Assembly: GCF_039555335.1 (NCBI RefSeq)
Contig: NC_092644.1
Location: 43,076,667-43,140,666 of the forward strand
DNA from: Amphiura filiformis
Taxonomy: Eukaryota; Echinodermata; Ophiuroidea; Amphilepidida; Amphiuridae
Reading direction: 5' to 3'
Length of the DNA stretch: 64,000 nt
Below are positions 28,644 to 62,000 of the stretch, piece after piece (positions within the stretch are counted from its first letter, which is position 1; every line of letters begins with the position of its first letter). A program made the translations under genes and the position numbers. Below the pieces are notes generated by a model, which saw only the letters and a program-made list of their open reading frames with translations, had not been told where the DNA came from and made no database searches.

Positions 28644-28779
28644 TACTGCTGTTTTCTTCGTTTTTGGCCAAATTTGTCTTTTTCAGAATGCCAAGTTACA
28701 ATTTGAATGACTTATCCTTCACTTTTAAGCAATTTATATACAATTTTAATTTTTTATATTTGTGCTTGGGATCACTGAA

Positions 28780-29110
28780 TGGGTCTTTAATTAATTAATT
28801 AATTAATTAATTAATTACTTAATTAATTAATTAATTAAACTCTTATCTAATTATTTTATTAATTCTAGGGCATAGACCTACATTAATTAATTAATTTATT
28901 TATTTATTTATTTATTTATCAATTAATTTATTTATTTATTTTTTATTAATTTATTAATTTATTTATTAATCTATTAATCTATTAATTAATTAATTAATTA
29001 ATTAATTATTTTATTAAATATTAAGTTATTAATTAATTTATTTATTCATTTATTAATTTATTATTTTATTAAGATATTAAGTAATTTATTTATTTATTAA
29101 TTTATTTAAT
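28780..29110. repeat. TTAA/TTTA simple-sequence tract
   Basis: Long runs of TTAATTAA and TTTATTTA with occasional interruptions. A 47-bp segment beginning ACTCTTATCTAATTATTTTA lies here at about 28839 and also at about 27301, a direct repeat spanning the nested TA element. Confidence 0.9.
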
Positions 29111-29227
29111 TTATAGGGCCTAGGCCTATACTTATGGTACTTAGGGCCTATGTATCTACATTTTGTATTTATTTGTTTGTGCGTGTATTTATTTATTTAA
29201 TTATTTTTGTTTAATCACCTATCACAT

Positions 29228-30122
29228 CTCGAACTATATGAATCAATCACTCATCCATCACTCTTACTCACCCTTCTCATCACTCACACCTCTTACTCAC
29301 CCCTCTCATTACTCACTCGACTCACCCACTCACTCACTCCTTCACTCACTCACTCACTCACTCACTCACTTAATCACTCACTCACTCACTAAATTAATCA
29401 ATCACTCAATCAATCACTCTACCATCACTCACTCACTCACTATACTCATTCACTCACTCACTCACTCAACTTTCACACACTCGATCACTCACCCCCACAC
29501 TCACACCCCGTCAATCAATCACTCCACTATCATTCACTCACTCACTCACTCACTTAATCAATCAATCACTCAATCAACCACTCCACTATCATTCACTCAC
29601 TCACTCAATCACTCGGTCACTCAATCAATCAATCACATAAAAGATAGTCCTCACTCCACTCACCCCCCCCCCCACACACCCCCACACACACCCACACTCA
29701 CTCACTCAATCAATCACTCCACTGTCATTCACTCACTCACTCACTCAATCAATCAATCACTCAATCAACCACTCCACTATCATTCACTCACTCAATCAAT
29801 CAATCACTCGGTCCGACTCAATCAATCACTCACTCACTCACTCACTAAATTAATCAATCACTCAATCAATCACTCCATCAATCACTCTACCATCACTCAC
29901 TCACTCACTAACTCTCTCACTCACTCACTTACTCACTCACTCACTCACACACTCACCCCCCACACACTCACTCACTCACTTACTCAATCAATAAATCAAT
30001 CAATCACTCGGTCACTCAATCAATCAATCACTACTATTGCACATAAAAGATAGTCCTCACTCACTCACACCCCCACTCACCCCCACACTCACTCACTCAA
30101 TCAATCAATCACTCCACTGTCA
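29228..30122. repeat. ACTC / AATC tetranucleotide array (~0.9 kb)
   Basis: Alternating CACTCACT and CAATCAAT runs with short C-rich interruptions. Higher-order units recur, such as CACTCCACTATCATTCACTC (at least four times). A 296-codon frame over 29163-30053 is a translation of the repeat (THSLTHSLN) and not a credible protein. Confidence 0.92.
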
Positions 30123-30349
30123 TTTTGATTGGGTGAGTAATGAGTGTGTGAGCGATTGCTGAAGTAATGATTGCTTGATTATTGATATGTTGATGGATAG
30201 GTTGGTTGCGTTTGATCGCGTTAGTATTTGAACACACGCCTGCTTGATTGTTTATTGCTTGCTTGATAAGTTATTTAATTATTTATTTATTTAGATGCGA
30301 GCGATTAACAAATAAATAATAGATCAAATAAATAAACAAGCAAATATAT

Positions 30350-30854
<505 letters not shown>

Positions 30855-30859
30855 AATAA

Positions 30860-32395
30860 ATAAGCAAGCATTAAAAGATAAAACAATAAGCAAGCAAGCA
30901 ACAGTTATCAATTAATTTATTAACTTACAACGATTTACACCACTCCGAAGTAACTATAAACAAATAAATAAACAAAAACAGATAAACAAAGTGATTAACA
31001 TAAAATAACAAACAAATAAACAAACTTATAAAGAAACAAATAAACAATTTAATTAACAAAAGATAAACAAATAAACTATCAAATTAACAACAAACTTATA
31101 AGCAAACAAACAAACAATATGATTAACAAAAAATAAACAAATAAATAAACAAATTAGCAAAGTTATACAAAATGAACAAATAATTAACATAATATAACAA
31201 ACAAATAAACAAACTTATAAACAAACAAATCAACAATATAATTAACAAAAATAAATACACAAATAAATAAACAAATTATCAATAAACTTGTAAACAACAA
31301 ATAAACAAACTTATAAACAAATAAACAAACAAACAAACTTATAAACAAACAAAATACAAACAAATAAACAAGCAAGCAAATAAACACACTTATAAACAAA
31401 CAAGTAACATTATCATTAACAAAAATAAACAAATTAATAAACAAATTAACAAACTCATAAACAAACTAATTAACAAACAAATAAACAAACTTATAAACAA
31501 ATTAATAAAATCGTGTTTAAACAAACAAGTAAACAAACTTATCAAAAAAACACAAGTAGACAAAAATAACAAACTTATAAACAAACAAACAAAATACAGA
31601 CAAATAAACAAAGTCGTTATTAAACAAAAGATAAATAATAAATAAGCAAACAAATAAATAGGTTAACAAACTTATAAACAAACAAACAATATGATTAACA
31701 AAAAATGAACAAATAAATAAACAAATAAACAAACTTATAAACAAACTAATTAACAAACAAATAAATAAAAAATCAAACTTATAAACAAATAAATAAACGT
31801 TTAAACAAACAAGTCAACAAACTTTAAAAAATAAACAAGTAAACATAAACAAAAATAAACAAATTAACAAAATAATATAAAATAACAAACAAATAAACAA
31901 ACTTATAAAACAAACAAATAAACAATATAATTAAACAATAAAATCAAATAAACAAATTAACAACAAACTTATTAACAAACAAATAAAATTATACACAAAT
32001 AAATAAACAAACAAACAAAATTCAAACAAATAGTCATTAACAAAACACAAACAAACCAATAAATTAACAAACTTATAAACAAATAAATAAACAATATGAT
32101 TAACAAAAAATAAACAAAGAAATAAACAAATTAACAAACTTATAAACAAACTAATTAACAAACAAACAAATGAATAAACAAACTTATAAACAAATAAATA
32201 AAGAAACGCTGAAACAAACAAGTCAATAACAAGTTATAACAAGTAAACAAAACAATTAACAAAAAAACAAAAAAAAAAATCAAACAAATAAACAAACCAA
32301 ATATAAACAAATAATTACTAAGTAAATAACAAACCATTAAACAATCAAATAAACAATACAATTAACCAACAATAACAAATAAATAAACCAATTGC
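30860..32395. repeat. AAAC/AAAT-rich degenerate array (~1.5 kb)
   Basis: Irregular AACAAATAAACAAAC units, with recurring phrases such as AACAAACTTATAAACAAAC and CAATATGATTAACAAAAAAT suggesting higher-order units. Minus-strand frames are Leu/Phe/Ile/Cys/Tyr-rich translations of the repeat (LFICLFICL) and not membrane proteins. Confidence 0.9.
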
Positions 32396-32505
32396 CCATG
32401 GTGTACACTACTGGTGTACTGCACAGAATACCTAGAACGCTTGTATATACGTCATTTAATTAATTATTCATAGATCGCTCCGGCGGTTGGAAATCAGCGA
32501 TTACC

Positions 32506-36337: not shown

Positions 36338-36345
36338 GCTCAACC

Positions 36346-36863
36346 TAGTCACGATTATCGCACTTTCAGTTTCCCACGCGTTTGAACGGGAATTGGATTG
36401 CGTACTTTTTCGATGTCTAGTGAGCAAATTTTTTCAATATTTTGAGAAAATGATGTCAAATTTTCTATTCTGTATTGTTTGGTAATAATGTCTTTTGCCA
36501 ATAGTATGTTTAAAGTTGTAATTTTGTGTTTTTGATCGCAAAGATCGGATATTTTCGTTCCCGATTCGAATTCTGAACCCTTCGCAAGGGTGCCGATTTC
36601 AGCAGAACTTTGACGATAATTTTGCCTTTTTGGACACTAAAATGCTTTCGATCTTTAATTTTGTTTCAACCGAGTCTTAAATTAGCAAGCACAATACGAT
36701 TGGTACCACTTTTATATACATTGATGAAATTTTAAAGATTTTTTTTCAAGTTTCTAACCGGCGCAAATCGTTAAGTGTGTATTTCCCATTGACATCCAAA
36801 ATGGCGTAAGCCAGTCCTCAATATACATAGGTACGGCGTATATAGGACTGGCAAGCGAGTCTA
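36346..36863. mobile_element. TAGTC element copy 1, perfect 8-bp TSD, 3'-terminal hairpin
   Basis: GCTCAACC at 36338-36345 and 36864-36871 is a perfect 8-bp duplication. The 518 bp element starts TAGTC and ends GAGTCTA (5-bp imperfect TIR). Near the right end GCCAGTCCT and ATATAC pair with GTATAT and AGGACTGGC around the loop ATAGGTACGGC (36810-36853). Nearly the same sequence as 49029-49539 apart from this stem. It has no coding frame. Confidence 0.88.
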
Positions 36864-36871
36864 GCTCAACC

Positions 36872-38003
36872 CGGGAGCTCAACTGATCGTACTTTTCCTA
36901 CATTCGACCTTGCATAATTTTTGAGTTGACACAGTCATGAAAATAACTATAAATACTTGACAGACCATTAGTAGCCCAGTTCTGAACCTTTACATTGATC
37001 ATTCATAACAATAGGTATCTGATGGATCAGTGAAGATAAGAAGGGATTATAATATATCCGTAACCTTGATATTTAGTACATCTCGAGGAAAAAGTGCAAT
37101 GGATATGTTTTCATTTTATGTTTCAAATATCCCGCGCATGAAAATTGAGTATTTAACCCAAAATGGAAAATGGAACAATTTATTGGAAATCTGTTTTAAC
37201 AGATTTTTTTGACATCTTTTTCTGCACTGTATTATTATATACCTAAATTAAGAAATTGATTTTTACACATTTTGGGGCAAAAAAGGAAAAAATAAGCAAA
37301 AATATCAAAATCTAGTTTAACAGCTTCATTCATCAAGTCATAACAAACGGCCTACATGCTTAATTTCTAATAAGATATTGAAATTGTGAAAAATATAGGT
37401 ATTTATTGATTTTCATGTTTTTTCTTGCAAATATGCTAATAATATGCAAATTATGAAATTGCAAAATAAAGTTTCTACATAGCATACATCTTTCAAGTGT
37501 GATGTTCAAAATGACCGGGAAAATGACAGACATCAAAAAGAGATTCGATGAAATGTAAAGGTGTAGTAACAATTTTGGCATGGGTGGACTGTCTGGTTAG
37601 GAAAAGTACGGTAAGTTGAGCTGTACAATGAATCTTCTTCATCACCGATACTGACATTCGTGGAAACGTAATAAAGATAACATCATGTCGAGGTTAGAAG
37701 GTTAAGAACTTCCTGCCAAGCAACCGTGCTCCAAGTCTGACGAAGCGATTCAGAGCCTAGCAATACGTCAAACCGCATCTGCGGGTCATCCCAAGTGTTA
37801 AGGTCGAATCGTGGTTGGCAAGCAAAAAATCTACAATTACAATGATTCATATACACATAAAAATTGACAGAGTTTGCATTTATTTTATTGCACATGGATA
37901 AGTCATGTTCTGCAATTGTTTATAGCTTGATCTGTTTTGAACGCCTTCGCGACATCGGACCGTGAAAACTACCTGCTCAGTTCTGCCAAGTTCCTACGCT
38001 AAA
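36872..38003. other. Upstream region of the sushi-protease gene
   Basis: Nothing firmly recognised. A minus-strand frame at 37683-37895 (45 residues after a possible acceptor, ending NLLTST) has a coding-like look but no identified family. TTTATA at about 37918 is a possible TATA element for the 38004 start. Confidence 0.3.
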
Positions 38004-38082
38004 ATGCTGCTTTGTCTCCGAATAGTTTATGTTCTTTATTTGCTTGTCACTTCATGGACCATTATTATCGCACTGTACGTTC
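38004..38082 (+). CDS. Candidate signal-peptide exon of the sushi protease
   Basis: ATG at 38004 opens 26 codons of a strongly hydrophobic peptide (MLLCLRIVYVLYLLVTSW then TIIIALYV) followed by a good donor GTAAGT. The exon leaves in phase 1, the phase needed by the first sushi exon at 48569; the split codon becomes CCT (Pro). A TTTATA stretch lies about 80 bp upstream of the ATG. The link across 10.5 kb is inferred from phase and content only, and the peptide could be a signal anchor. Confidence 0.5.
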
Positions 38083-41000
38083 GTAAGTACTACTTTTAAA
38101 CATATTAAAGCTAACATCAAACTGATATGTAGTGTTTGCATCAATATGTATTTTGACACTATACGGTATCTACATATACGCCTAACTCTAACTTTAATGT
38201 TTTTAATCATGTTATATTGTTTAGTATGCATCCACCAGACCCTACAAAGGTATAGGCCTTCACTACATGGCCCCGGTACATGGCTACAAAATGATGGAAA
38301 GTCCAGATATTTGATATACATATTAATTATTATGCGATATGGAAACGGAAATGTTAAAAAACATTAGTTTTCTCCTCCCCACCCCTACCCTCTCCCCTTA
38401 AACATTGTTTAATCCGGCAGCACTACTGATAGGAATCGAACTTTTCGCTGCTCATATAGGAACATAATTATGTCATACCATAGACTCTGAATTCAGAGTC
38501 TATGGTCATACACAACAACACTCTGGAAAACACTACACCCCCCCCAGACTATGTGTCACCTATTTTCATGTTTTATATTTTAGGCCTATGAAGGAAACAG
38601 CTGTTTAAAAAAAAATCAAGTATACAAACAGTGTGACTGTCGCAATTGAAGAAGGAATATTCACAAAGCGACATCATCACGGTTAACTGACATAAGGAAC
38701 CGAAACTTGTTTCCTCATAAAAACGCTCCAACTGAAAGAAAACATCCTTTCTTTTTCTTTTAATTGAATTAGAAAACGAATTTATATCCAAGAAACCATA
38801 TCTGTTTAAAACGTGACTTCAAATGGTTTCTAACAAAGCTATAAACAAGTCTGTAATTGTATAGGACAATTTTTGAACAGATTATAACCAACTTACTTGA
38901 TTGGGGTAAATTATTTTGTTCCCAAAGTCAGTACACAATATTGCACCCCAGTAAAATAGTGATTACTTTTTGTCATACAGTAGGCCTACATCAGTCATCA
39001 TGTTGGCCCATTTTGGATGTTTGCCCCGGGGGAGGAACTCGAATATGAAAGTGACGTACCTGTGCCCACCAGCGTACGAAACTAGGGGTCTATCAGTGTA
39101 GAAATTTTCAGAAAAAAGCCTGTGTTGGCAATGTCCAAAATGGGGTGATTTTGTATGGGAGCGCCCAAAATTTCACATCATTAACAATCAAAAATAGCTT
39201 TTTACCCAATTTTACAGTACAAATTAGACAAAACTCATTTATGTTTTTCAAAATGCGAGCGAAGCGCGCCGAAATTTCAATTTTTAGGACTAATTGTTCA
39301 AAAAAGGGGGTCATTCAGTGTAGGCTACTGAAAAACGGGGTCATTGAGTGTATAGGATTTGACAAAAATAACGGGTCTTTTCATGGGCACATAAGGTATG
39401 TACATATATTCCCGGGTTTTTCGTTATTTCTTGTAAACTAAAAGAAAATATACTAAATATACGAAGCACTATACTAAATGTTTTTGAGTGGCAAACTCTG
39501 CAATGTCATTCAAATATTTAAATACAAAATAGACAAGAATAGACAAAGGTATCAAATAGTGGAACGGGTACACGGTCATAATGTGTCAACCAATTTACAC
39601 TGATATAATTGTTTTAAGTTTACACTAACGCTTTAAATGATTAAAGTTGTTAGGCAAATGTTAATCTTAATTACCATGGTCATCACTATTATGTAATAAT
39701 TGTTTACAACGGTCAACAAGCTATTAGTCAATTTCCGTGGTGGCCTTAGGCCTAATACCCATACCCACACATAAATAAGTTAGTAAAAAGCTGGTAAACA
39801 AACGTGTTTATACATCTAAATCTTCTTTTTTTTGTAGGGCTGAATGTATGATATTGAAAAATCTGTTTTTACGATCAAATATTATGTCAGTGACAGCTTG
39901 GAGCACAGTGGATTGAAGTTTAGAAAAACAGCTGATTATTCCAAAACACTGTCAGACAGCATGTATATAGACCTATATAGGTCATTTATATACAGGATGT
40001 CGTTGTCGCTGAAACTTTTGAGAACTGTATCGTCGGAAACTTCGGGGGGGGGGCAAAATGTATATCAACAAGGGTTTTTTCAGCATTAGAGGTGGTACAC
40101 CCCTCCCTCTCCCCCTCCCATTACACCCACAGCCTCGAGCTGTGGCCCTGTTGGCGACCAAAAAGGTCCAGTTACATTTTCCATAATATTCCGCCCTTTT
40201 TTCATGAAAAATTCTTCTTGCAGCCCCTTTTGTCCCGCCCTTTTATCTTTAATAATTCTTCTTGCCACCCCTTCATCTTCTTTTTGCCGTCGCTGCTTTT
40301 ACCCCGGGAGACTCGCGCCCCCAAAGCCCCCCCAAAAAAAAAAAAAACGAGTTCAAACCTTTCCACGTCTTCAAATATCAATCAATGAGTCAATTGTCAA
40401 AATTCAAAAAGCATGTGATAGCTGATTTATTCCTCAAACACATTTAGTTATGGTTGGTTCTGGCATTAAATTTAAGTGTTCGACAATACAATTTTCAGGA
40501 ACATCCCGTATCATTAAACCAGATTGCTGGGAAATTAGCTACAATACCGAGGGTTCAATATCAACATATTCTATTTCTACGCACGAATAAATGTTCAAGT
40601 GATGTGAACATGATGGTAAATGCATAAATGGCACTCTCCCATCCCATACAAAACCTGTCTTCCTGATAATGAAAAATACAACTGGTACATCAATAACATC
40701 ATAATGTAGCTGTACTGTAGGACATTTACCATACTAGTATATTGAAAATGTCATGTTCATCTCAATAAAAATACACAAAGCCAAAAAAGAAACTTATTAT
40801 TTTTCACAAGGTCATATCTCAAAATCCTGTCCATCAAAAGTAACCAAAATTACACACATGATTGCCTCAATACTCTACTCTAAATACTTGTAGATGTAGG
40901 TAACTGTGACATAGTTAAAGTGAAAATACTAATTGCTGTACAATATTTGATAAAATATTGGGAAAATATCTAAAGACCAAATTTGATAGTACTGGTCACC

Positions 41001-44000
41001 TTTGGTGAGAAAAACAAGTTCTTTAAAAAAACATAAGATTTTGGCATCAATAATATTTCTATAAAAGAGAGGTTGACCCAGAGAGCTTATGGGTGGATCT
41101 CAGTTTATCACAATGAAAAGTAAAAGTAAAATGAATAGTAATAATATAGAATGATCTTCATGAAGTTATTAACCTCTTTCATGAAGTTATTAACCTCCTC
41201 AAGGCTTTGAGGACAAAAGAAATGCTATCGTCATTCCTCCCACATTTCTATTTGTTAAAGTAGTGAAATTGGCATTATGGTGTAAATTTGAATCCAACAT
41301 TCAAATTGGTGTTAGTCACACTAGGCCTCGCATTAGAAGATTTAGTTTCAGTCAAGCATATGGCAGATGCAAATTTAAATTTTGGCTTTGATCGATTCAC
41401 CTTTTTATGTAATGATGACCCCGATGATGACCTGTCTTCACCAACAGGTAATAAAATAAATTTTGAAAGAAAATGGCCAAGTGTGCCGGATAAACTAAAC
41501 AAGTCACTTAAAAAATTTAATTGTACCCACTTACAAGCGATTTTAAATTACTAAAGAAGCAACATTTTAATATGATATTGTATCTATTTCATTCAAATAT
41601 AAAGATAGCCATTTGGTACCCCAAATTTGGGTACACCATTTTATCAGGGAAGTGCCACTTCCCTGATTTTATCACTAAAGGACTACAGTTAGACGGACTG
41701 TGGAGTGATGAGTTTATTTTGTTTTCACTTTAGTCAGGAAGACTATTGTGACGTTTTGCCGTACAGGCACTTGTTGGGTACCTCCAAGGGTATACCATTT
41801 CATCAGGGAAGTGCCAATTCCTGATTTATCACTAAGGACTAGGGTCACACGGTGACGTGATGGGTTTTACTTTATCACTTTAGTGAGGACGACTATTGTG
41901 ATGTTTTGCTGCACAGGCACCTTTTGGGTACCTCCAATTGGGTATGCCATTTCATCAGGGAAGTGCCACTTCCCTGATTTTATCACTAGGTACTAGGGTC
42001 GCACGAGACCTAATGGTGATGTGATGGGTTTACTCAGGAAGACCTTTGTGATGTTCGCCGCACAGGTATTTTTGGCTACTTTTATGATTTGGCTCTGTAA
42101 GATATAATATTGAATTGTTGATGTTAATTTAATATCATGATAACTTTGAATTAAAGTTAGGATCTTTCTTTTTAGTGAAAAGAAAGTTTAATAGCAATTA
42201 AACTTAATACCTAGAATTTACATTTCATTGAAATAAAGAGTTTGAAGTGATACTGAAATGAATCAGTACCAGATCTTGCATATTTTACAATAATGCAGAT
42301 CTACTTGTTGCATATCTATTGAAAGCATATAATTAAGTTGTAACCCAGGACGGTTGGGTGCAATTTATCACTAGGGTTTCAGAAAAACCTACTGGTGATG
42401 TGATATTGTTATTGCCACAAAGGGCAATGTTTTGGCCACTCTGATGTGTTCTTGAAGAATTGCAAGAGATGCTAATCTAAAACATAATGAGACTTGTTAT
42501 GCAACCAATTTGAAAAGAACTGCCATGCTAAAATTTTAGAAAAGCAACTTACCTGCTAATTAAGATGGAAATTTTGACTGCCGACAACAAAGGCAAAACT
42601 TACTATAATAACATGTTTTAACATATTATACACATGTTATAGGAAATGTCAAACTCGAAACTGTTCTAATTTAAGTGATCATTAAAATTTAAACCATTTT
42701 GGATATATGATCAATGAAATTTAAGAAGTGAAGAACCAAGAAAGTAACAATTAAGCAAGCAGGAAAGCAAATGAATAACAAAATTACACAAAGAATTACT
42801 AAAGTTGTGTGACTAATATTAAACTTGAATGTTGAATGATATTTAACCACCATTTGCCGCTTTCAGTGCATAACATATGGGTGGCTATACTCTAAAGTTA
42901 TTTGGGTGACCAACGGTCTTCCAAAACCATACCGTCTTACGTTAGGCATGAGACAGCAAGATAATGTAAGATAGTAAATGTAAACCTGTATTTTAGCTAG
43001 AGTATCTCGAGCTAATGAGACCCGGGGCATGAGATAACTTTGTACATATTCAGTCACGATACAAAAGACTGTTGTACATAGAACTGTTGAAACTGGATGG
43101 TGAAAAACGACTCCAATTGCTTAAACAACGGAGATGAGACAAATATTTGAACTTATGATGATGATAACTAATTTCAGAACTTTGTCCATGTACATTTATA
43201 CAAATACATAGTACATGTACAGTGAACTGCCTCAGATGCAAAATATAAACAGCCCTGCTGAGATAAAACTAGAAAAAACTTTAACGACACTTACTGCGAG
43301 TTTCTATGGAGGAATGCACATAGTCAAGAACATTTGCTATATGAACATGTATCCAGAATGAACTTGAATTATATTTCCAGCGAAAAGGAAGAGTATATTC
43401 CATGATATAAATATTCCAGTTTGGATAGACTTTGCAAGCAGTGTTTATTTTAACTATATACCAGTATTATTTATATTCCATGCAACATTGCTTTCAATAA
43501 CAAGAAGAATACAAATGATCATCTTTACATCGTCTCAAGGACATGTAACCTGCTTACCACAGAGAACCTATTCTTGAGAGGGCACTCTATTCACGTGGTT
43601 TCTTTTCCAACGCTAAAAGATAACGAATTTTGGTGGTTTGCAAGTGAAAAGTGTCCGCACTTTCGATTGATTACGTAACTGTTATGAATAATTTATTAGG
43701 GTTTTCAATGCAATCGCCTCGACCCATAAGTACATATTATCTGTATTGTTAAAGTACTTGCAATAGCAATCCGGTGAGTTCAATGAACTACGCTATAATA
43801 CTGATGGAGTTTTAATGGCGTTTAATTGCGTTAATCCTCTCCATACACAGATGCACAAATACAATAGATGCAGGTCAACACGTATGACCTCCTATGTGAC
43901 GTGTTATATTTGATGTACAAAAACCTGAATATCATAAAGATCAGTATTCGTTTGTGCATATGGACTGCACATATACGATGCTAAATATTACTCATTATAC

Positions 44001-47000
44001 ATTATGACAAATATTGGTATTATGACAATACGGTATATAAGCTTATATACATTGTATATAAAACGACTAATAGATCCTACTATCATGGCGTCAGGTCAAT
44101 GGTTCATCATATCCCGTGTGTTTCTTAAAATTCATTCATATTTGAGACAACTTGCTGTGCCCAGTTTATAGGTGCAGGTGGCTCCGTGTTTTTGTTTTTT
44201 TTTCATTTCTTTTTAATGAAAGAATTAAGGTTTTCCACTGCACGGGGCCACAAGGGTGATACTAAATTTAATGCTATATTTATAAATTGAATACGTGTTC
44301 CCGATTGGCTCTATAGCGATTTCACAGAAAAGGTATTTCTAGTACGATGCAGCGTCGGACTCTAGCTGAGAGCGTAGCCTAAGTCATTATGGACTGCCAA
44401 GAAAGGCTCTCCATACACAAATGCACAAACACAAAGGAGGGTAGTCTCCTCCATGGCCAGCTTGATTTCGATGGAGCGAAACCAAATTGGCTGCGGAGGA
44501 GACGGGTCATTTTGCCATGCAAATTATTCAGTGTCAGGGCTCTGCTGCTTACTTAACAACTTTTTCTATTTTCTGAGCCTAATCCAAGATAAATGGATAC
44601 TACAAGGCAACCAGAATTACAAGGGATCATCTACAAAATTGTAAATAAACTTTTGCTGTCTACATGTACATTACAGCAGTTTGTCTACAAAACATCAGGC
44701 TGTATGAACACTGGTATATTCAACGCTCATCATGAACTTTTTGTCGATGTGGTTCGCTTTGTCTTCAATCAAGCCGAAGAACTGAAAACTATAATTCTCT
44801 AAAGGAACACCACAAAGAAGAGCATGGATCACGAAGACGAACTTAAATGACGGACAATGAACCAATGAATAAATTCATATTATATAAAGAATGAAGATAC
44901 CACTTCATTTTTCGAAGAGGGGGCATGTGACATAGTTAAAGTGAAAATACTAATTGCTGTACAATATTTGATAAAATATTGGGAAAATATCTAAAGACCA
45001 AATTTGATACATAGTACTGGTCACCTTTGGTGAAAAAAAACAAGTTCTTTAAAAAACATAAGATTTTGGCATCAATAATATTTCTGTAAAAGAGAGGTTG
45101 ACCCAAAGAGCTTATGGGTGGATCTCAGTTTATCACAATGAAAAGTAAAAGTAAAATGAATAGTAATAATATAGAATGATCTTCATTAAGTTATTAACCT
45201 CTTTCATGAAGTTATTAACCTCCTCAAGGCTTTGAGGACAAAAGAAATGCTATCGTCATTCCTCCCACATTTCTTGGTAATGGAAATGTGCCAAAAACGA
45301 AGAAAGACAATAGATGGCAGTGGACCACAATTGTTCCTACTTGACCACTTGCTCATCTTGGAAATCATACATGATGAATATTAATTATTAATATGATTGG
45401 CTATTAAAGGGACACCCTTACTTTTGAGAATCCTCATTGGTTAAAAGTATATTTTGGGGTGACCTATTATTAACATTAGTTCCATATAGTTTTATATCAA
45501 TCCCAAATTAAGTTAGTCTATTGACTCAGAGAGCACCTCACTGAGGTGTTCGAAGAAGATTTTAAAACGCCATCGAAATGTGAAAAGCTTATCTTCAGAA
45601 ATAAAATAGTTATGCTTAGAGATATAAACATCAATAAGTGTACTTGTGTGTTAATGGCCACGCTATTCGTTCGTCACAGTAACCAAGCACAAATGAAGCA
45701 GTTGACCAACTGACACACCAGCAAAATGCACTGATATGGAACTGCTTCCTGGACCACATTCACAGCCCAATAATTGGCACCCAGCAAAAGAAATCTGTGA
45801 GAATCATTGAACAGATGATAATTTTCAAAACGGTGCTGCTTTCTGCTTTTCGCGCAGTTTCTTTAAGAAACAAGTCTTGTTTCACACTATTCCATTTACT
45901 CCTTGGGAATTATCATCTGTGCAAGGACCTTGTTCACATTTTCACAGATATCTTGTGCTGGGTGCCAATTATTGGACTGTGAATGTGGTCCAGGAAGCTG
46001 TTCCATGTCAGTGCATTTTGCTGTTGTGTCAGTTGGACAACTGCTTGGTTACTGACATGTGTTTAGACTTTAGAGTTAAGTATTCAAGTAATCCTGTGTG
46101 TAATTTTGGTTCATTTTGATGGACAGGATTTTAAGATATGGATTTTAAGTTTCGTTTTTGGCTTAGTGTAGTTAGATATGATATAATATTCACCAGTTTT
46201 ACTTTTAATGAATTGGGTCAGTCTGTTCCAAAAGTATTTGATTTTATCACAATCACAATAATAAGTTCACCAAGGATTCCTCAGAATTATTATTTTGTGT
46301 AATCATGGTAATTGGCTCACGGATTCACTTTTCTTGCTGTTTCTTTCTAAAAACCGTTTTCTTTTATTACTTAGTTGATATATAAGTTATTTCAACCATG
46401 GACCCTTTTCCAGGGTCCATGTTTCAACTAAAATCTGTAATTTTGTTTGAAGTTGCTTGAACTGGTTGATAAATCGGGAAAACAAATTTCACAGAAACAC
46501 CGGCAAAATTATGAAGAAAACTGAAAGGTTATGTCCGTCTGTTGAGATCGCGTCCCATTATTTGATACATTTTTGATGAAGAAATCAAAACTCGACCACC
46601 GGTTCCGTCTGGTTTCTATTGTTCTAAACAATGGAAAGCAGACGGAACCGGCGATTGAGTTTTGATTTCATCCCATATGTCCGTAAAAAACCAAATAATA
46701 ATTCAGGATTGACGGATCTCTGAATGACCCATTAGCTCAGAGGTCATTGACGTACAAAACCAGTATTGAAAGAAGATAGTGAGATTTGACAGCTAGCACA
46801 GAATTTGGTTGCCATGACGTAAGAGCTGCTTGTCATGGTCATCTTTCTAATGTTCGAATATTAATATTTCCACAGATTTCGAGTAAAATATTTACCTCAA
46901 ATAATGAGTATTGCGTATAGGCTAACAATTCGATCGGGACGAAAATTGTCTTGTAATTTATGACCATTTTTATTTCACCGAAGACCCCTGCTTTTTCATG

Positions 47001-50000
47001 GTGGAGAGGGTACATTAGATTTTCGGAGCAATCAAGGCACTTTCCTCTGTCGCTTTAAATTATCTTTGTGCAGACCTCTGACAATAAAATAGGCCTATAA
47101 ACATGCTCTAAATGGTATTTATTCCAAAATACGTTAGTCCTAGGTTTGTTCCGAAAGATCGTCGCTCCGAAGAAAGAATAGTTGGACTTCGGAGTTCATC
47201 AAAAACATTGACCATTCGTGTTTCAGATTAGAGAACTCACGTCTCGCAACTGATGACCGGCACTACTAGCCTTGACGACGAGTCATCGAAGAGAGCCCTT
47301 CAAAAATGTGTTTCTAGAAAAGACCCTGAATGTTGACCGTCAGTCGTCAGAACAAAACCAATGGGCAACCTTAATTGTTACTCTTCAATTCAAATTGTCA
47401 TCTGAACTTACAATTTGACTACCTATATATTTTGCTTTAAAAAAATCGGCACTGCCATTTTTTGTACCATTATGTTTACTTGCCTTCGTTACACAGGACG
47501 ACGCTTCTCTTCGCTTTCCTACAAGTCATCTTCCACCCCCATTCCAGTCTACCTTGTGCCTGATGTACAGCATTCTGTATTCATCTCTATACCGTGTTGC
47601 ACAACTCGTACTGGGTCTCCCCAGGACCGTTATCCGGAGGGTCGTTATTCCAAGGGTTATACTCCGAATTTAAAATAAGGCTTGTTATTCCGAAGGTTCA
47701 TTACTCCGAAGGTTAGTTAATTCCGAAGGGTCAATACTTCAAAGGCCCGTTACTCCGAAGGGTCATTACTCCAAATTTCGGCATAATTGTCCTTCGGAGT
47801 AACGATCTCTTCCGTAAATTCGGAGTACTTTGTAGTATTGAGTCTTCATAGTATTGAGCCTTCATATAGTATTGACCCTTCGAATAACGAACCTTCGGAG
47901 TAATAAACCCTCGGAATAACGACCCTTCTGGCAAGCTCTCGGAGAGGAATTAAGGCGAAGTTTGGGTATAAGGGGGGTATACGGACAACATGACAAATCC
48001 ATTTCATCCGACATGGCCTTTGGATGGTCCCCTCATTTCTATCTTTATTATAGACCAAGGCCAAGGATGGATCGAAGACACACTCATCACAATACTGCAA
48101 GCTCACGCTGGTCAAATTTACGCAATGTCAAAGATTCTGCTCCCGGTAGATGGCATTAGGGAGAATAACGGCTCTGTAAATCCTCACTTTGAGTGGCCTT
48201 GAGATGTCTTGGTTCGACCAGATAGTGCGTTTAGACGCAGGCTTTCACCAATTAACTCATTGATAGACTGGACATTTTGAGCTGTTTCGAATATAAGGGC
48301 CGTGAGATTGTATCTCTCATCTTCAAGGTGTACAGTAAGGTTGGATAGGCTTGGCGAGAGGACGTATATTAAACCTGGCAGACTCAACACTGATAAAGCT
48401 TCACCCTGACAAAGCTTCAACCTGATGGCTTCTGCCTAGTTGTGGAGCCCTTGCCGGACCATTAACACATTGTTACATTTTTGTACCTATTTATCAGTAG
48501 ATTTAATGTATATATTGCATATTTTCACATCTTTTTAATTTCAGTATTTATCTGCGATTCTATTTCAGCTTATTGTCCGGACGAAAGAGAACTACCTTAT
48601 GGCTTTGTAAAATACTCAGTAGGCAAAAATTACTACAGTCAGACACAGTTAGTTGATGGAGTAAAGAAAAGATTTAGGTGTTTCAAAGGCTATTCGATAC
48701 GGGGAGTAGACACGGCAGAATGTATCGGAGGAAGTTGGTCGGCACCTGCACCGGATTGTATGCCAGGTAAGGACATTATTAACAACTTCTCACCACTGTG
48801 GTCTCACATACTATTTACTGGTACGGTTGTTTGATATGGTGATTTATTAATTTTTCTAACAAACATTATAATTATAATCATGATAAGGTTCAATTGTAGA
48901 CATGAACACTGCCAACAGATATCACACTAATAATATACACATAATTTTTTAGCTCTATATAACATATACGCTTCTCTCTTTGAATAAGTTCATCAGGACT
49001 GATATAGTTAAATTTAATATGTACAAGTTAGTCGGGATTACGCACTTTCAGTTTCTCGCGCGTTTGAACGGGAATTGGATTGCGTACTTTTTCGATGTCT
49101 AGTGAGCAAATTTCTTCAATATTTTGAGAAAATGATGTCAAATTTTCTATTCTATATTGTTTGGTAATAATGTCTTTTGCCAATAGTATGTTTAAAGTTG
49201 TAATTTTGTGTTTTTGATCGCAAAGATCGGTTATTTTCGTTCCCGATTCGAATTCTGAACCCTTCGCAAGGGTGCCGATTTCGGCAGAACTTTGACGATC
49301 ATTTTGCCTTTATGGACCCTACCATGCATTCGATCCTTAATTTTGTTTCAACCGAGTCTTAAATTAGCAAGCACAATAAGGTTGGTACCACTTTTATATA
49401 CATTGATAAAATTTTAAAGATTTTTTTCAAGTTTCTAACCGGCGCAAATCGTTAAGTGTGTATTTCCCATTGACATCCAAAATGGGAAATACGAGTCTGA
49501 TGGACATAGGAACGGCGTCCATGAGACTCAGCGAGTCTAGTACAAGTCCAGAATTTTACTTACGTTTTAGACGTTTCATCTTCCGTGCGGAAGATTTCAT
49601 CAGTAATGCGCCGATACAGCCGCTGCATCACCTCTGGTCCTCATCCCCAGGATGTGTTGTTGTTTTCAGTAGCTGATCGTATACATGACTCAAAGAATAT
49701 GTTCCTTCATTGCGATTGATAACGTGCCCCCCAAAAAAACAAACAGAAAAAGATAGACGAGGGACAATATAAATTGTTCTACCCAACTGTCATGACTGTT
49801 GAGAACACACCGCGCATCTACTGCACCACAAAAATCCACAAAGAAGGATACTCGGTCAGACCAGGGACCTTGTATGGAGGGACTGGAAACGCCTTCCATC
49901 CATTGTACCATCAGAGAGTTGATATTCTTGAGAGGGCACTCTATTCACGTGGTTTCTTTTCCAACGCTAAAAGATCACGAATTTTGGTGGTTTGCAAATG

Positions 50001-53000
50001 AAAAGTGTCCGCACTATCGATTGATTACGTAACTGTTATGAATAATGTATTAGGTTTTCAATGCAATCGCCTCGACCCATCAATACATATTATCTGTATT
50101 TATCAAAGTACTTGGAATAGCAATCTGGTGAGTTCACTGAACTACGCCCTAATACTGATGGAGTTTTAATGGCGTTTAATGGCGCTAATCCTCTCCATAC
50201 ACAGATGAACAAATACAATAGGAGAAGGTCAACACATATGACCTCCTATATGACATGTTATATGAGATGTACAACAACCTGAATATCATAAAGATCAGTG
50301 TTCGTTTGTGCATATGAACTGCATATTTACAATACTAAATATTAGTCGTTATATATTATGCCAAATATTGGTATTATGACAACACGGTATATGCATTGTA
50401 TATAAAACAACTAATAGATCCTGCTATCATGGCGTCAGGTCATTGGTTCATCATATCCCGTATGTTTCTTAAAATTCATTCATATTTGAGACAAATTTCT
50501 GTGCCCATTTTATAGGCGTACAGGTGGATCCGGTTTTTTGGTCATTTTCATTTCTTTTGATGAAAGAATTAAGGTTTTCCACTGCACGGAGGCCACTATG
50601 TGATACTAATTTAATGCTATTTGTAAATGAATGCGGATTCCCGGTTGTTGTTTTTCCACAGTGTGACAACTGTCCACCCATCCAGACAACATCATAACAT
50701 AATAAAACGTCTGTATTTGTACGATGAGTAAATATTAAACTGAACTTTGCCTTGGAACATTGTGTAAGACGGTGTAAGATTTTGTGGGCGCCCTCAACAT
50801 TATTATCCTCTTTGAATCCGTAAATGACATGGCATAGACTGTGTGAATTCTATGAAGACTACTTATACATAGGGTCATATCCATGGACACAAGTAACGAT
50901 AATTGACAACACGATACGCGACTGTATTTAGGGGCTAACCACTAATAATTAATAATGCCGGGTAGGGCCTACTCCTGGGCGACTCGTGTGGGCAAGGACG
51001 CTTAGGACGGTGACCAAATGAGTCCCAAATTTCACCGGGGGTGGGGGGCACTCAAGTATGATAGTGTAGGCCTAAACGCATGACTTTTTTAAACACCCCC
51101 TAAAACGAGTTTTACCCTACCAGCAAATTTAGGATCAATAGGCCTAAGCTAACTTAATACACTAAAGGAAGTTTTGGATGAGAAAACGGACATTTTGATG
51201 AGAAACGGCCAAAATGGTGAGAATTTAAATTTTCTCATTCTTTTGGATGAGAAACTTCCTGGTGTGTGTGTCAATCATTATTGTCTTATTAAAACTGGTG
51301 AAAATTGGTAATCCCCGCTGAGCTCAAAATAAACATTATTATTTTGTCATCCAAAAGAAGAATGAGAAAATTAAATTCTCATCAGTGGCCGTTTCTCACC
51401 GATCGCATCATGTGTCCGCATGTGATCAGATCGATGTCATGTTGACGGCAAAATCCGGGACTTTGGTTGACCTGTGCTAGACTCCAGCACATGTTAATGA
51501 CGCAAAGACAGTTGTGGTAACACCATGGTCGCAGACATGCAAAAAAGCTCAAAAACAGATAGTAATGAAACCAGTTTTATTTTCCTTGCTCTAGCGAATT
51601 CAAAGAGAAGGTGTTTCTAGTACAATACAGCGTCGGACTCTAGCTGAGAGCGTAGCCTAAGTCCAAACGGACTCCAAGAAGGGCTCTCCATACACAAATG
51701 AACAAACACAAAGGAAGGTAGTCTCCTCCGTGACCAGCTTGATTTCGATGGAGCGAAAACAAATTGGCTGCAGAGGAGACGGGTAATTTTGCCATGCAAA
51801 TGAGGTGAGTGTCAGCCCCCTGGTACCATGCGAGTTGCTGGTTTACAAATTATCCTCAGTTGAGCAAGCATGAATAATACGTTGATCAATAGACCAGAGA
51901 GTAGATATTCTTGAGATGGCACTCTATTCACGTGGTTTCTTTTCCAACGCTAAAAGAGCACGAATTTTGATGGTTTGCCAATGAAAAGTGTCCGCACTAT
52001 CGATTGATTACGTAACTGTTATGAATAATTATTAGGTTTTTCAATGCAATCGCCTCGACCCATTAACAGGGCTACGACACTCAGCTCATTTGCATGGCAA
52101 AATTACCCGTCTCCTCCGCAGCCAATTGGTTTCGCTCCATCGAAAACAAGCTGGCCACGGAGGAGACTACCCTCCTTTGTGTTTGTTCATTTGTGTATGG
52201 AGAGCCATTATTGGAGTCTATAATGACTTAGGCTACGCTCTCAGCTAGAGTCCGACGCTGCATTGTACTAGAAATACCTTTTCTGTGAAATCGTTATCGA
52301 GCCAACCGGGAACACGTATTCGTTTTGAAAATATAGCATTAAAATTAGTATCACCCCTGTGGCCCCCGTGAAGTGGAAAACCTTAATTCTTTTATTAAAA
52401 AGAAATGAAAATTAAAAACAACACGGATCTACCTGTGCACCTATAAAATAGGCACAGCAATTTGTCTCAAATATGAGTGAATTTTAAGAAACATACGGGA
52501 TATGATGAACATTGACCTGACGCCATGATAGCAGGATATATTAGTCGTTTTATATACAATGTATATACCGTATTGTCATAATACCAATATTTGTCATAAT
52601 ATATAATGAGTAATATTTAGCAACGTAAACGTGCAGTTCATATGCACAAACGAATACTGATCTTTATGATATTCAGGTTTTGTACATCACATATAACATG
52701 TCACATAGGAGGTCATACGTGTTGACCTTCATCTATTGTATTTGTTCATCTGTGTATGGAGAGGATTAGCGCCATTAAAACTCCATCAGTATTAGGGCGT
52801 AGTTCAGTGAACTCACCGGATTGCTATTCCAATTACTTTGATAATACAGATAATATGTATTAATGGGTCGAGGCGATTGCATTGAAAAACCTAATAAATT
52901 ATTCATAACAGTTACGTAATCAATCGATAGTGCGGACACTTTTCATTTGCAAACCACCAAAATTCGTGATCTTTTAGCGTTGGAAAAGAAACCACGTGAA

Positions 53001-56000
53001 TAGAGTGCCCTCTCAAGAATATCAACTCTCTGCCATTAATATACCGTGTGCAATAAGTTCGTTCCGCCCCTACCCAAAAGCATTTATAAGATGTTTAAAA
53101 TGAAACCAGGAATAATAGACAAAGGGATAGGCATCCTAGTATGCTGCCCTCTTTCGAAATATGTATCCTAGGTCTCACAATAGGCGGATTTGCGGCCATT
53201 TTGTCTTCAACATGATTTTATTCACATGTCCTTATATTTTAGTACACAAATATACAAGTTAACAGGTTTACAATTTTAAAATTATATTTTGAGTATACAA
53301 TATATTCTGTAGTAAATAGATCAAATGACAATGATTGTTCAGGTATTATATGCTTGATAGAATTAAACTGTTTGACCAGCTAGTATTCTCCTCCGCCGTC
53401 AGTGTGATTCCAGTCACTCCACGTACCGTGTTGCGAAGGTGGAGGAGTCTAAAGCTGTATTGACGAACACGCATGCGTTAAAAATATGTAGTCTAAGTCG
53501 AACAATAGCGTGACGTAGCTTCCGGCATTGTTCCTATGCACTTTCACCCTCCTGATGAAACTCACACAATGCATTTAAAGGCTACTTGTTATTTGTTATG
53601 TTGTTACATGAGTAGAGATGTTTGACAAATTTATTTGAAATCATAGGATCCTTGGTGGTCAATCACCATGATACCTCCAAACCACGCTTGCCACAGAAAT
53701 AATGTCAACTAATGGCACAAGAAGTTCCTAATTCTTATCTAGGCTTTGCCATACACTCTGGACTCTATCTGTAAGTGGTATTATGATTTTGCAATAAGGA
53801 GTTTCAAAAAAACTTTCTTTTAGACTAGACCACAACATTTCTCTATTGGGTCAAGACCTTCTTCTTCCATTCTCTTGCAATCTCTCTCTCCTTGAACAAG
53901 CCATTGTTGGTTTTTTTGGACGCCATCTTTAAATTCTCTGAGGTTTGGGGTTCTTTAAATTCCTCAAGACACACGTCTGTCCGCACTAGAAGAAAATTAA
54001 AATGGCTGGATAATTTCTACAGTGTGTATGCCTTAAGAACATTCATAGCAAGTAATCCTGAGGGCAAAAGCTGATGGTGCTCTAACTATAGTGATAATAT
54101 GCTCAGAGCAAACCGGACATAAGGGCGGAACGAACTTTTTGCACACCGTATACATATTATCTGTATTATCAAAGTACTTGGAATAGCAATCCGGTGAGTT
54201 CACTGAACTACGCCCTAATACTGATGGAGTTTTAATGGCGTTTAATGGCGCTAATCCTCTCCATACACAGATGAACAAATACAATAGATGAAGGTCAACA
54301 CGTATGACCTCCTATGTGACATGTTATATGTGATGTACAAAAACCTGAATATCATAAAGATCAGTATTCGTTTGTGCATATGAACTGCACATTTACGTTG
54401 CAAAATATTACTCATTATATATAATGACAAATATTGGTATTATGACAATACGGTATATACATTGTATATAAAACGACTAATATATCCTACTGTCATGGCG
54501 TCAGGTCAATGTTCATCATACCCCGTATGTTTCTTAAAATTCATTCATATTTGAGACAAATTGCTGTGCCAATTTTATCGGGTGCACAGGTAGATCCGTG
54601 TTTTTTTAAATTTTCATTTCCTTTTAATGAAAGAATTAAGGTTTTCCACTGCACGGGGGCCACTCCAAGGGTGATACTAATTTTAATGCTATATTTTCAA
54701 AACGAATACGTGCTCCCGGTTGGCTCTATAGCGATTTCACAGAAAAGGTATTTCTAGTGCAATGCAGCGTCGGACTCTAGCTGAGAGCGTAGCCTAAGTC
54801 ATTCCGGACTCCAAAAGGGCTCTCCATACACAAATGAACAAACACAAAGGAGGTAGTCTCCTCAGATTAGCTTGATTTCGATGGAGCGGAACCAAATTGG
54901 CTGCGGAGGAGACGGGTCATTTGGATATGCAAATTAGGTAGTGTCGCTGCCCTGAATAGACCCTAGTACGAATCCAAGTACAGTGCCAGGGCAGCGACAC
55001 TACCTCATTTGCATATCCAAATGACCCGTCTCCTCCGCAGCCAATTTGGTTCCGCTCCATCGAAATCAAGCTGGTCACGGAGGGGAGATAGCGGAAGAGC
55101 TTGCTACGGTTTATAGGATAGATGACGAGGACATTTTCAATTTGCATGACGTGGTGTCGCTTTTCACAAATACCCCCATTAATATTAGACTTTGGAGATA
55201 GTGAGAGAGTATTTGGATAGGGGCGCCACCTTAAAACAAAGAACCCTTCTTGACACCAAAGAAAATAATCGAGTTTGTTCTAACAACAACATACTTTTCA
55301 TTAAGGGGCGAAATTGACATTTTTCCCTCTATCCCACAATGCACTATTCCAGGGGGGTATGACGTAGTTCATCAACCTCATAGATCGTGTGCATCCGATG
55401 GTCTTTACCAGGCCTTTGCAATTATTTTGTCTTAATATGGGCATACTGATTCCATATATGCGGATTATCGTAAAGGCCATCGATGTTTCTAATTATGCAA
55501 TTATTGAATACACGAGTGATGCAGTTACGGAGCGATGCAGAACATCTGTGTAAGAGATTTTGTTTTCGTTTTATTTTCAACTTCGAAAAAAAGTGAAACG
55601 GACGCCGGTAAAATATCACTGCGTGTCCCGTAATCAGTTTTTCACCATTAGGTCTATAAAATGTATACAAAGTTAGGTTTCAATAACAGGAAACTTTTTT
55701 TGGCGACGACACCATGTCCATAAGGCATACAAATGTTGTTTTTGCCCCGAAAGGTATTAGTGATCGCGCGCCATTATCGTGATGATCGGGGATTCCTTTT
55801 TTGTGATGAAGGCACCAGCCGAAATGTCCGTATTCCAGAATGTAATGAACATAACTCTGTACTCCCCCGGGGAGATGATGTATTTTGCGACACTCATACC
55901 CCCCTGGAATAGTGCATGATGGGAAAGAGGGAAAAAGGTCTATATACAAACAGAATTTCGGAGCAGCTATGGGCAGCCCTTGTAGCGCCATTATCGCGAA

Positions 56001-59000: not shown

Positions 59001-62000
59001 TATCTGGGCAGGAACTTACTCAACCGATTACCCAGGCAACTTTGTCCGTGAAGGGACTCAAGTGTTCTACGAATGCGACGACGATTACGCTGAAGCTGTT
59101 ACAGAAACACCTGTCACTTGCTTTCAAGGAAGGTGGCATCCGGGAGACCCTGACTGTATAGAAAGTAAGTTATTCAACCAATAACCTCTTGTCTACCGGA
59201 GGTATTTTTTATAACACGTCTACTGAAGGAGTGGTTGTTGTAACCCTCTACCTGAACTCCGTACAGACCAATCATAAAATAGAGATATTGCGATTTCCAA
59301 ACGTACGTATCGAACGTACGTGGAATCGATTTATTCAAAATCACTCTCCTGTGACGTGATTTTGAAAAGATTCCACGTACGTTCAATGCTACGTTTGGAA
59401 ATCGCAATCTCTCTATTATCTTGTTGTCTTTGGTATAAATACGGGTCTCCTCTATACCCATTGATACCAAATTAAATACCAACAGTCTCCATATTATGTC
59501 ATTATGATGTCATGTCATTATATGAGTACGCCGTCAAGAATTGTACCGAAAATCCCACTTCTACATAAACTTATGAACCAAAATCGATTTTTGGTAAAAA
59601 TGTTTATAGAAACATACATGTTTGTGGCGCGGCTACATATGAAACGAATTCAATAGCCCTTAGATTAGAATGTTTTCATAAGACCAACACAGATCAGTGG
59701 CTTAGCGTCATATATGGGCACGGGAGGACGTATCCCCCAATCGATTTGATTGTGTCTTGACCCTCCCCTCCCCCCTTCAGACCCGATGCGCTCCACCCTC
59801 CATCATGAGCTATCATGGTTGGTGCCTCCAATAGGATGACCCACGCTACCGGCCCGGGCTACGCCACTGAAAATGATGCTGAAGTTGAACCACATCCTCT
59901 TGGGCAAAGGTAAGGTGGTATGTCAATATATTTCTCGCAAAAATAAGTGCCAAGGATGGGCCCACAATTTGCCCAAGTCGGTTGGCGGTTGGCTTTTTAG
60001 CGTGCAAGTAGACAAGGGTTAAAGAAATATCAGGTCGATGCAAGGTTGCGCTATTTTCAAACACGTTTCAAACTAGCCTGCACACTTTTGGACAGTGGGC
60101 GTTGTTTTAACATCTAAAATTGACTTATGGTCATCTTTCCACACTCGCCAGGTTGAACGCGCAACTCCGATAATCTTCGTTATCTTCGTTCTCCAACATG
60201 TCCAAAGAAATACAATCTTATTGCAATTTCAAATTTTTATTTTTTTGACAAATCCAATGAAATAAGTACTCGCGGTTTTAGCTTTGGCCGTCTGGGCTGA
60301 CGGCTTGATACGCGCAAGTGATCTGGCGAAACTAACCTGTTGTTGACGTTTTCCGGAATTTGACGTTCTTTGAGTAGTGGATCGTAATACGTGAACGAGA
60401 GAATTCCGATCTATATTTTTGATTGATTGCCTTGGCTCCCTTGTTGCGAATTTTGGAAGGAACCAAATTTTCTGGTGAATGTTTCCTCCCGGACACCATT
60501 CAATTATTTGATTATCGATTTTCTTGAAATTGAGCAATATGGTCGATAATGACTGATTTACGTCGTTCTGCAGTTGGTTCGTTCTAGATCAAATGATCAA
60601 AAAGGATCGTCACTTCGCAACAACAGGTTTAGTGGGAATTAAAGGCAGTTGTTCAGATCACTTGAGCGCGGTCAAGCACAGACAACCAAAGATTAAGCAG
60701 TGTGTTCATGACCTACTCATTTCATTGGATTTGTTAAAGGGGGACTCCGGCAATCATAACATTATGCCTTATATGTTAGAAAAATAATTATCAAGCACGA
60801 ATCACATTGTTTTATTTAAAACAAACTCATATTGACCATAAAACGAATAAAACAGTCGGCTCTCAACACGCGATATTCAAAATTCCCGCGCCGAAATTGT
60901 CCAAGTGTAATGACGTAATGGTTATTTGTGTTCAATTGTCGTCAGCCTTCATTGTATTACTGGGACGTCATTGCACTCGGCGCCCGGGAATTTTGAATAT
61001 CGCGTGTTGAGAAACGGAGGTTTTTATTCGTTTTTATGGTCACTATGAGTTTGTTTTAAATAAAACCATGTGATTCGTGCTTGATAATTATTTTTCTAAC
61101 ATATAAGGAATAATGTTGTGATTGCCGGAGACTTCCTTTAAGCTCAAGTAATGTTTGAAATATCAAATCCCCAATCCTACAAATGCATCTAGTGACATAT
61201 TGCCGGGTGAGCAAATGGGGGTCGAATACTAATCACCCATTGAACCGGGCCATTGAAGCATGTACAAACAGTCAACTCATGGGGTGGAAAACGGGGATTG
61301 TGATTTTGTTAAACCAGCGCGATTTCCCTTTTGTTATTCTACTGAATTTTTGGCTTCCACAGAGGGATGTGCATTACCATCAATTCCTAGTTATCTAACA
61401 ATAGAAGAAGAAATCACTGATTATCATGTGGATCATGGAACATGGCTACATTTCCATTGTATACCAGGCTATCGGATGAGCGAAGATGGTTTCTCAGAGT
61501 CTAAATGTTGGTATGGTGAATGGGAAACAGAACCTCCACTTTGTGTCCCAGGTCAGTTGTGATGTATTCATTATGTTGATCATGAGAATTCTCCTCTTTT
61601 GCATGGAGAGGAGGCATATCCTTTTTATGCGTACAATAATGTTATCTGCATAAATTACACGGTACATACGATTGTGTATCCGTATGTATCCTATCCTGTG
61701 ACCAGTCACTGTGCAAATGCTAGATAAATTAGTATATTTAAAACAGTTGGTAGAAAAACTTTGTACAGAATAACATTTTGCCATCAAATGTCCACATCCG
61801 TATTCTTCTGCTATAAGTCGTAATACCCCGATTTATAAGTCTTACCACAAACAGATCGGAAAGAAGTTCGATGAAGTCATGTAACTGTATAAACGAAAAG
61901 TCATTTCGTTAGGAAGCTGTCCCCCCTTGAAAGTGTTAGTGTTCAAAATTCCAACCTGAAAGCTAGGTCGACTTTGACCATAGATAGTGTCTCCTTCAGT

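Follow-up and report, generated by a model that had tools for sequence, protein, structure and literature searches.

Paired changes in a right-end hairpin of two copies of a short transposon with 8-bp target-site duplications from Amphiura filiformis

Two copies of a short, protein-less element are present in the 64,000-nucleotide stretch of Amphiura filiformis DNA analyzed here (hereafter, the window). The element is a non-autonomous DNA transposon, represented in the window by two copies of one family, and the stem of a hairpin close to its right end has undergone paired change that exceeds what independent mutation gives. That pairing has been kept despite the changed letters hints that the shape of the hairpin matters, two copies being too few for proof. 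The reading of the whole that we tentatively adopt, as a possibility that falls somewhat short of being probable, is that the copies belong to one short family with 8-bp duplications, that the hairpin-bearing right end may serve as a structural signal, and that this end may have been exchanged as a block between source lineages. Counted in its support are the differing, perfect 8-bp duplications, the folding of the right ends, the clustering of 21 of the 41 differences between the copies, and the retention of pairing to a degree reached in 11 of 5000 controls.

The sequence-only reading of the window had already reported two copies with 8-bp target-site duplications; its boundaries, which are those listed in Table 1, are exact, and the flanking direct repeats are perfect in both copies (GCTCAACC around copy 1 and GTACAAGT around copy 2). 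Among lengths of up to 15 bp, no direct flanking repeat longer than 8 bp and anchored on the element ends was found at either copy. Because the two duplications are unlike each other, the copies represent two insertions with target-site duplication. The duplication may alternatively be 7 bp long, with the element ending in CTAG, as G is the first base of both duplications (n = 2 copies). When the two 11-base ends of a copy are compared, 8 of 11 positions agree in copy 1 and 6 of 11 in copy 2, and this end-to-end match is too weak to settle whether the element has terminal inverted repeats. Five other repeat pairs of the window were compared for flanking duplications: four of them, including the pair at 1049/27017, had no shared word of at least 6 bases at either copy, and the pair at 10807/23426 had shared flanking words of 7 and 9 bases.

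Table 1 Coordinates of the two element copies, their flanking duplications and their right-end hairpins (positions within the window).
Feature	Positions	Strand	Sequence or pairing
Copy 1 of the element, 518 bp	36346..36863	+	TAGTCACGATT...AAGCGAGTCTA
Left target-site duplication, copy 1	36338..36345		GCTCAACC
Right target-site duplication, copy 1	36864..36871		GCTCAACC
Hairpin H1, copy 1	36786..36804	+	5 pairs CCATT/AATGG; loop GACATCCAA
Hairpin H2, copy 1	36805..36857	+	CGT/GCG; AA/AA internal loop; GCCAGTCCT/AGGACTGGC; CA bulge; ATATAC/GTATAT; loop ATAGGTACGGC (36827-36837)
Copy 2 of the element, 511 bp	49029..49539	+	TAGTCGGGATT...CAGCGAGTCTA
Left target-site duplication, copy 2	49021..49028		GTACAAGT
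Right target-site duplication, copy 2	49540..49547		GTACAAGT
Hairpin H1, copy 2	49460..49492	+	GTATTTCCCATT/AATGGGAAATAC, 12 perfect pairs; loop GACATCCAA
Hairpin H2, copy 2	49493..49529	+	GAGTCT/AGACTC; G/G mismatch; ATGGAC/GTCCAT; loop ATAGGAACGGC (49506-49516)

The right end of each copy contains two hairpins, with H1 abutting H2 on its left side. The sequence-only reading had described H2 and lacked H1; the stems it named, AGTCCT/AGGACT and ATATAC/GTATAT in copy 1 and GAGTCT/AGACTC and ATGGAC/GTCCAT in copy 2, are all found in the sequence together with the kept loop ATAGG(T/A)ACGGC, and the hairpin pairs in both copies. For H1 of copy 2, a perfect arm of at least 12 bases was obtained in none of 500 first-order Markov copies. 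Folded as single-stranded DNA, the right end reaches -13.6 kcal/mol in copy 1 (z -4.19, a value reached by 1 of 200 shuffles) and -10.4 kcal/mol in copy 2 (z -2.66, reached by 3 of 200 shuffles), and the strongest 45-nt DNA folds of each element are located there. Between the copies, the H2 loop ATAGGWACGGC is changed at 1 of its 11 positions, and the last 9 bases of the element are identical.

The extent of covariation in H2 was evaluated on three maps of the 18 pairs of copy 1. On the MAFFT map, 8 pairs are unchanged, 8 are not kept at the aligned columns, and two adjacent pairs have changed on both sides (double changes), one from A-T and the other from T-A, each into G-C. Two further maps were made by hand, with gaps shifted to favour pairing: the first yields 9 unchanged pairs, 3 double changes, 1 pair missing from both arms and 5 pairs not kept, and the second yields 8 unchanged, 4 double and 6 not kept, with one T-A to G/G change uncompensated. 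On none of the three maps does copy 2 keep the outermost five pairs of copy 1, which involve 36805-36807, 36810-36811 and the bases opposite them; the H2 stem of copy 2 itself consists of 12 Watson-Crick pairs out of 12. The earlier statement that the stem differs in sequence but keeps pairing therefore describes paired changes that are real, but it passes over the facts that most stem pairs are identical and that the aligner's map holds only the two double changes. When the arms of copy 1 were mutated at random with the observed load of changes, the energy of the copy-2 hairpin was reached in 11 of 5000 trials, and shuffled copy-2 arms reached it in 3 of 5000. A full-text literature search found no published report of covariation in transposon ends of this kind.

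The differences between the copies are arranged in a block. Of the 41 differing columns, 21 fall within 49 of the 518 aligned columns (columns 460-508), and none of 20,000 random placements was as clustered; the difference rate is 0.43 in this block and 0.044 in the body of the element. The earlier description of the copies as near-identical outside the stem passes over differences in the bodies, at 20 of 459 columns. Within the body clustering is weak, with 8 of the 20 differences lying within 54 columns, which was equalled in 760 of 20,000 random placements; this mild clustering fits a mosaic history, to which it lends no strong support. The block starts inside the right arm of H1, directly past AATGG, and the left arm and loop of H1 are the same in both copies, a pattern that an exchange breakpoint at this place would leave.

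Two explanations for the paired changes had been offered from the sequence, namely, selection on the structure or a joint rewriting of both stem arms. The density of change (0.43 against 0.044) is too high for slow pair-by-pair compensation, which is thereby disfavoured, and it favours an exchanged or rewritten right end. Selection for pairing slows the change of stems or leaves its pace alone and should not produce a tenfold speed-up, so that selection on the structure is weakened as an explanation. It is weakened further because H1 is perfect in copy 2 and mostly unpaired in copy 1 (12 pairs against 5, so that the structure was not conserved throughout) and because five outer pairs of H2 were lost. 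Joint replacement gains in a broad sense: this comparison of two copies, with neither outgroup nor polarity, favours a replacement of both arms together that may have occurred via exchange or via template switching.

In the exchange reading, the two abutting hairpins would together form a structural signal, either addressed to the mobilising enzyme or marking where DNA synthesis ends, in which the loop and the pairing would count and the letters of the stem would count little. The copies would derive from source lineages that differ blockwise in their right ends, one of which might have gained a diverged yet pairing end by recombination or gene conversion within the family, both the exchange and its direction being inferred. 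With a breakpoint in or beside H1, copy 1 would be expected to carry a chimaeric, broken H1 next to a complete H2 of foreign origin. A functional precedent is offered by Helraiser, for which replacement of the hairpin stem was reported to leave about 90% of activity and a changed loop to have an effect like that of deleting the hairpin (PMC4778049). When the window was searched, with up to 2 mismatches allowed, for the H1 arm expected of a donor, GGCTTACGCCATT, the only match was the right arm of copy 1 itself, on the opposite strand. Other observations also speak against the exchange reading. It is drawn from only two copies, with no outgroup or donor sequence seen; clear covariation amounts to 2 pairs on the aligner's map and to 3 or 4 only with hand-placed gaps, with 8, 6 or 6 of the 18 pairs not kept on the three maps; and H1 is not maintained in copy 1, while the clustering in the body is weak (760 of 20,000).

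The same block of changes could have arisen by template switching without selection, which we consider unlikely. While the element was being replicated or a gap in it repaired, DNA synthesis would have stalled at the hairpins and one arm would have been copied from the other, and H1 would thereby have become perfect in copy 2. Both arms of H2 are indeed altered in a dense cluster with the loop unaltered, and the 7 extra H1 pairs of copy 2 (GAAATAC against GTATTTC) are what copying of the left arm is expected to give. Hairpins have been reported as products of template switching, with an enrichment of multiple compensatory stem changes in rRNA data, in a study that also regards the case for short stems being maintained as circumstantial (PMC8794818). 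The template-switch hairpins of RNA genes described there resemble the element in their clustered paired stem changes and kept loop, but they are placed on phylogenies with polarity (PMC8794818), whereas the element is represented by two copies only. However, one switch only matches arm to arm and supplies no new letters for both H2 arms, so at least two events would be required; moreover, the loop is not inverted, and the bulge and the mismatch of H2 were left unrepaired. A nearby source of the new stem was not found either, the longest reverse-complement match being 6 or 7 bases, lengths reached by 63% and 28% of shuffles, in a search whose copy-2 block began two bases late and missed the H1 arm. 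It is improbable, in our estimate, that the hairpin has no role at all and that the copies show a hypervariable recombining end, paired by history, in an ordinary non-autonomous transposon with 8-bp duplications. The decay of H1 in copy 1 agrees with this explanation, as does the fact that the kept pairs are mostly just unchanged, and with n = 2 sequences a single inherited event could account for everything; it is opposed by the double changes and by the retained folding energy, which was reached in 11 of 5000 and 3 of 5000 controls.

We compared the element with transposon groups that have structured ends or similar duplications. The 3' end of Helraiser has been described as a palindrome 11 nt before a terminal CTAG, in an element that starts with 5'-TC, with the hairpin acting as terminator and its stem being exchangeable (PMC4778049). 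As in the Helraiser and Helibat 3' ends of that report, a right-end hairpin precedes a CTAG end, by 11 nt in copy 2 and by 12 nt in copy 1, and the natural pattern seen here, with the loop kept and stem letters varying, agrees with the reported result of the Helraiser stem swap (PMC4778049). An element of HUH type (Helitron- or Replitron-like), with a single-strand mechanism that stops at CTAG about 11 nt past a hairpin terminator and belonging to a group that also makes 8-bp duplications, is nevertheless a very doubtful assignment. It would account for CTAG at 36861-36864 (12 nt past the last main-stem pair) and 49537-49540 (11 nt) and for the location of the strongest hairpins at the right end; as in Helitrons, the left end has no hairpin of similar strength. 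The CTRR-after-hairpin feature is present in both copies if CTAG is taken to include the base that opens the right duplication, and it is weak alone. If the duplication is 8 bp, the G of CTAG belongs to it. Hairpins before CTRR are also not rare, since 16 of the 1413 CTRR sites in the window have strong ones, three of these inside the two elements. Helitron insertion takes place between A and T and leaves no duplication. The perfect 8-bp duplications thus argue against an ordinary Helitron, and the element has no A/T insertion site: TC occurs only at element position 4, preceded by base +3 (TAGTC), and C or T follows CTAG. Its loop is longer (11 nt) than in Helitrons, and it has two abutting hairpins. 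A scan of 59 frames of the window found no HUH gene and likewise no RepHel protein, the only matches being to the sushi and acyl-CoA dehydrogenase families.

Replitrons, as characterized in a review, are 0.9-4 kb long, lack inverted repeats, and have 2-8 bp duplications and direct terminal repeats of 5-11 bp (PMC10741241). The element is similar in having no clear inverted repeats and in its 8-bp duplication, but it differs from the Replitrons of that review in its length of about 0.5 kb, the lack of a detected HUH gene and the absence of a 5-11 bp direct terminal repeat (PMC10741241); none was seen by eye in the 20-base ends, which have only AGTC in common, at unlike distances from the ends. 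Non-autonomous hAT elements share with it the 8-bp duplication (2 of 2 copies), the short size and ends starting with TAG. The hAT terminal consensus is YARNG, whereas the element ends in TAGNC (TAGTC, TAGAC) and its terminal repeat is imperfect (8/11 and 6/11). The reported hAT target preference, NTNNNNAN (PMC3878927), is fitted by GCTCAACC at 0 of 2 positions and by GTACAAGT at 1 of 2, values that concern a preference and two sites only. The hAT group thus agrees with the element in duplication length and not in terminal bases. Tam3 of Antirrhinum, another transposon with 8-bp duplications and a strong subterminal hairpin, reportedly has end hairpins that halt gap repair; unlike in the element, these are said to be present at both ends, with uniform copies. 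An origin as a SINE or RNA family was rejected: in the window, Rfam gave no match at the gathering score, with three chance-level matches around copy 1 (E 0.91-4.3), and ARAGORN gave no tRNA genes, a count that diverged tRNA-like heads could escape.

No third copy was obtained from pattern scans of genome and viral contigs, from distant blastn of copy 1 against plasmids or from that of copy 2 against phages, in collections of bacteria, archaea, viruses and plasmids that have little bearing on the host. A protein-pattern scan of the viral contigs matched 9 stretches, none of which was confirmed by tblastn. Within the window, short-word blastn for weak relatives returned the two copies and otherwise mere fragments, in none of which the loop and the end were present, and scans for the right end and the loop returned the two copies plus one loop-like, mismatched site at 56919 on the minus strand. 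A 93-residue frame on the minus strand of copy 1 (36355-36636), with a similar frame in copy 2, was rejected as a coding remnant. Its Pfam matches all fall short of the curated cut-offs (the best, to DUF7219, having E 0.062 and 0.11), its comparison with PDB gave one match at E 1.4, and of the nine substitutions 5, 1 and 3 affect the first, second and third codon position, respectively, which does not indicate coding constraint.

The surroundings of the copies contain probable exons and other repeats. Sushi-domain matches above the curated cut-off, in 3 of the 59 frames, mark probable exons at 48574-48759, 59017-59157 and 61434-61544 on the plus strand; copy 2 follows the first of these at a distance of about 270 bp and would sit in or beside a sushi gene. 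The acyl-CoA dehydrogenase match or matches (best E 1.4e-22) came from one or more of the 59 frames, the frame concerned being outside the 20 that were rescanned singly. The sushi and acyl-CoA dehydrogenase matches are in line with animal DNA. Direct repeats of about 160 bp at 41612-42079 present another hairpin-plus-CTAR layout, in which a hairpin ATCAGGGAAGTGCC(A)CTTCCCTGAT precedes TTTATCACTA in every unit; the 11-pair stem is present in two units, and the middle unit is damaged. A different repeat family occupies 43556-55086 as several direct and inverted copies that are about 90% alike, in palindromic arrangements. The repeat pair at 40905-41249 and 44926-45274 is 97% alike, and no flanking duplication of at least 6 bp was found at its blast ends. 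Long degenerate repeats of tetranucleotide type (TTAA, TCAC/TCAA, AAAC/AAAT) extend over 28754-32400.

There is also a slim chance that the element represents a new transposon group, in which a Helitron-type structural 3' terminator, whose loop sequence and pairing are read and whose stem letters can be replaced freely, is combined with an 8-bp duplication, perhaps through a single-strand mechanism outside the known Helitrons. Such a group would be the natural counterpart of the tolerance to stem swaps engineered in Helraiser. At present, the data consist of a single, suggestive pair. Should the paired changes prove general in the family, they would stand as a rare example of a covarying transposon end, one in which shape and not stem letters is read, and would provide a natural test of models of Helitron-type terminators.
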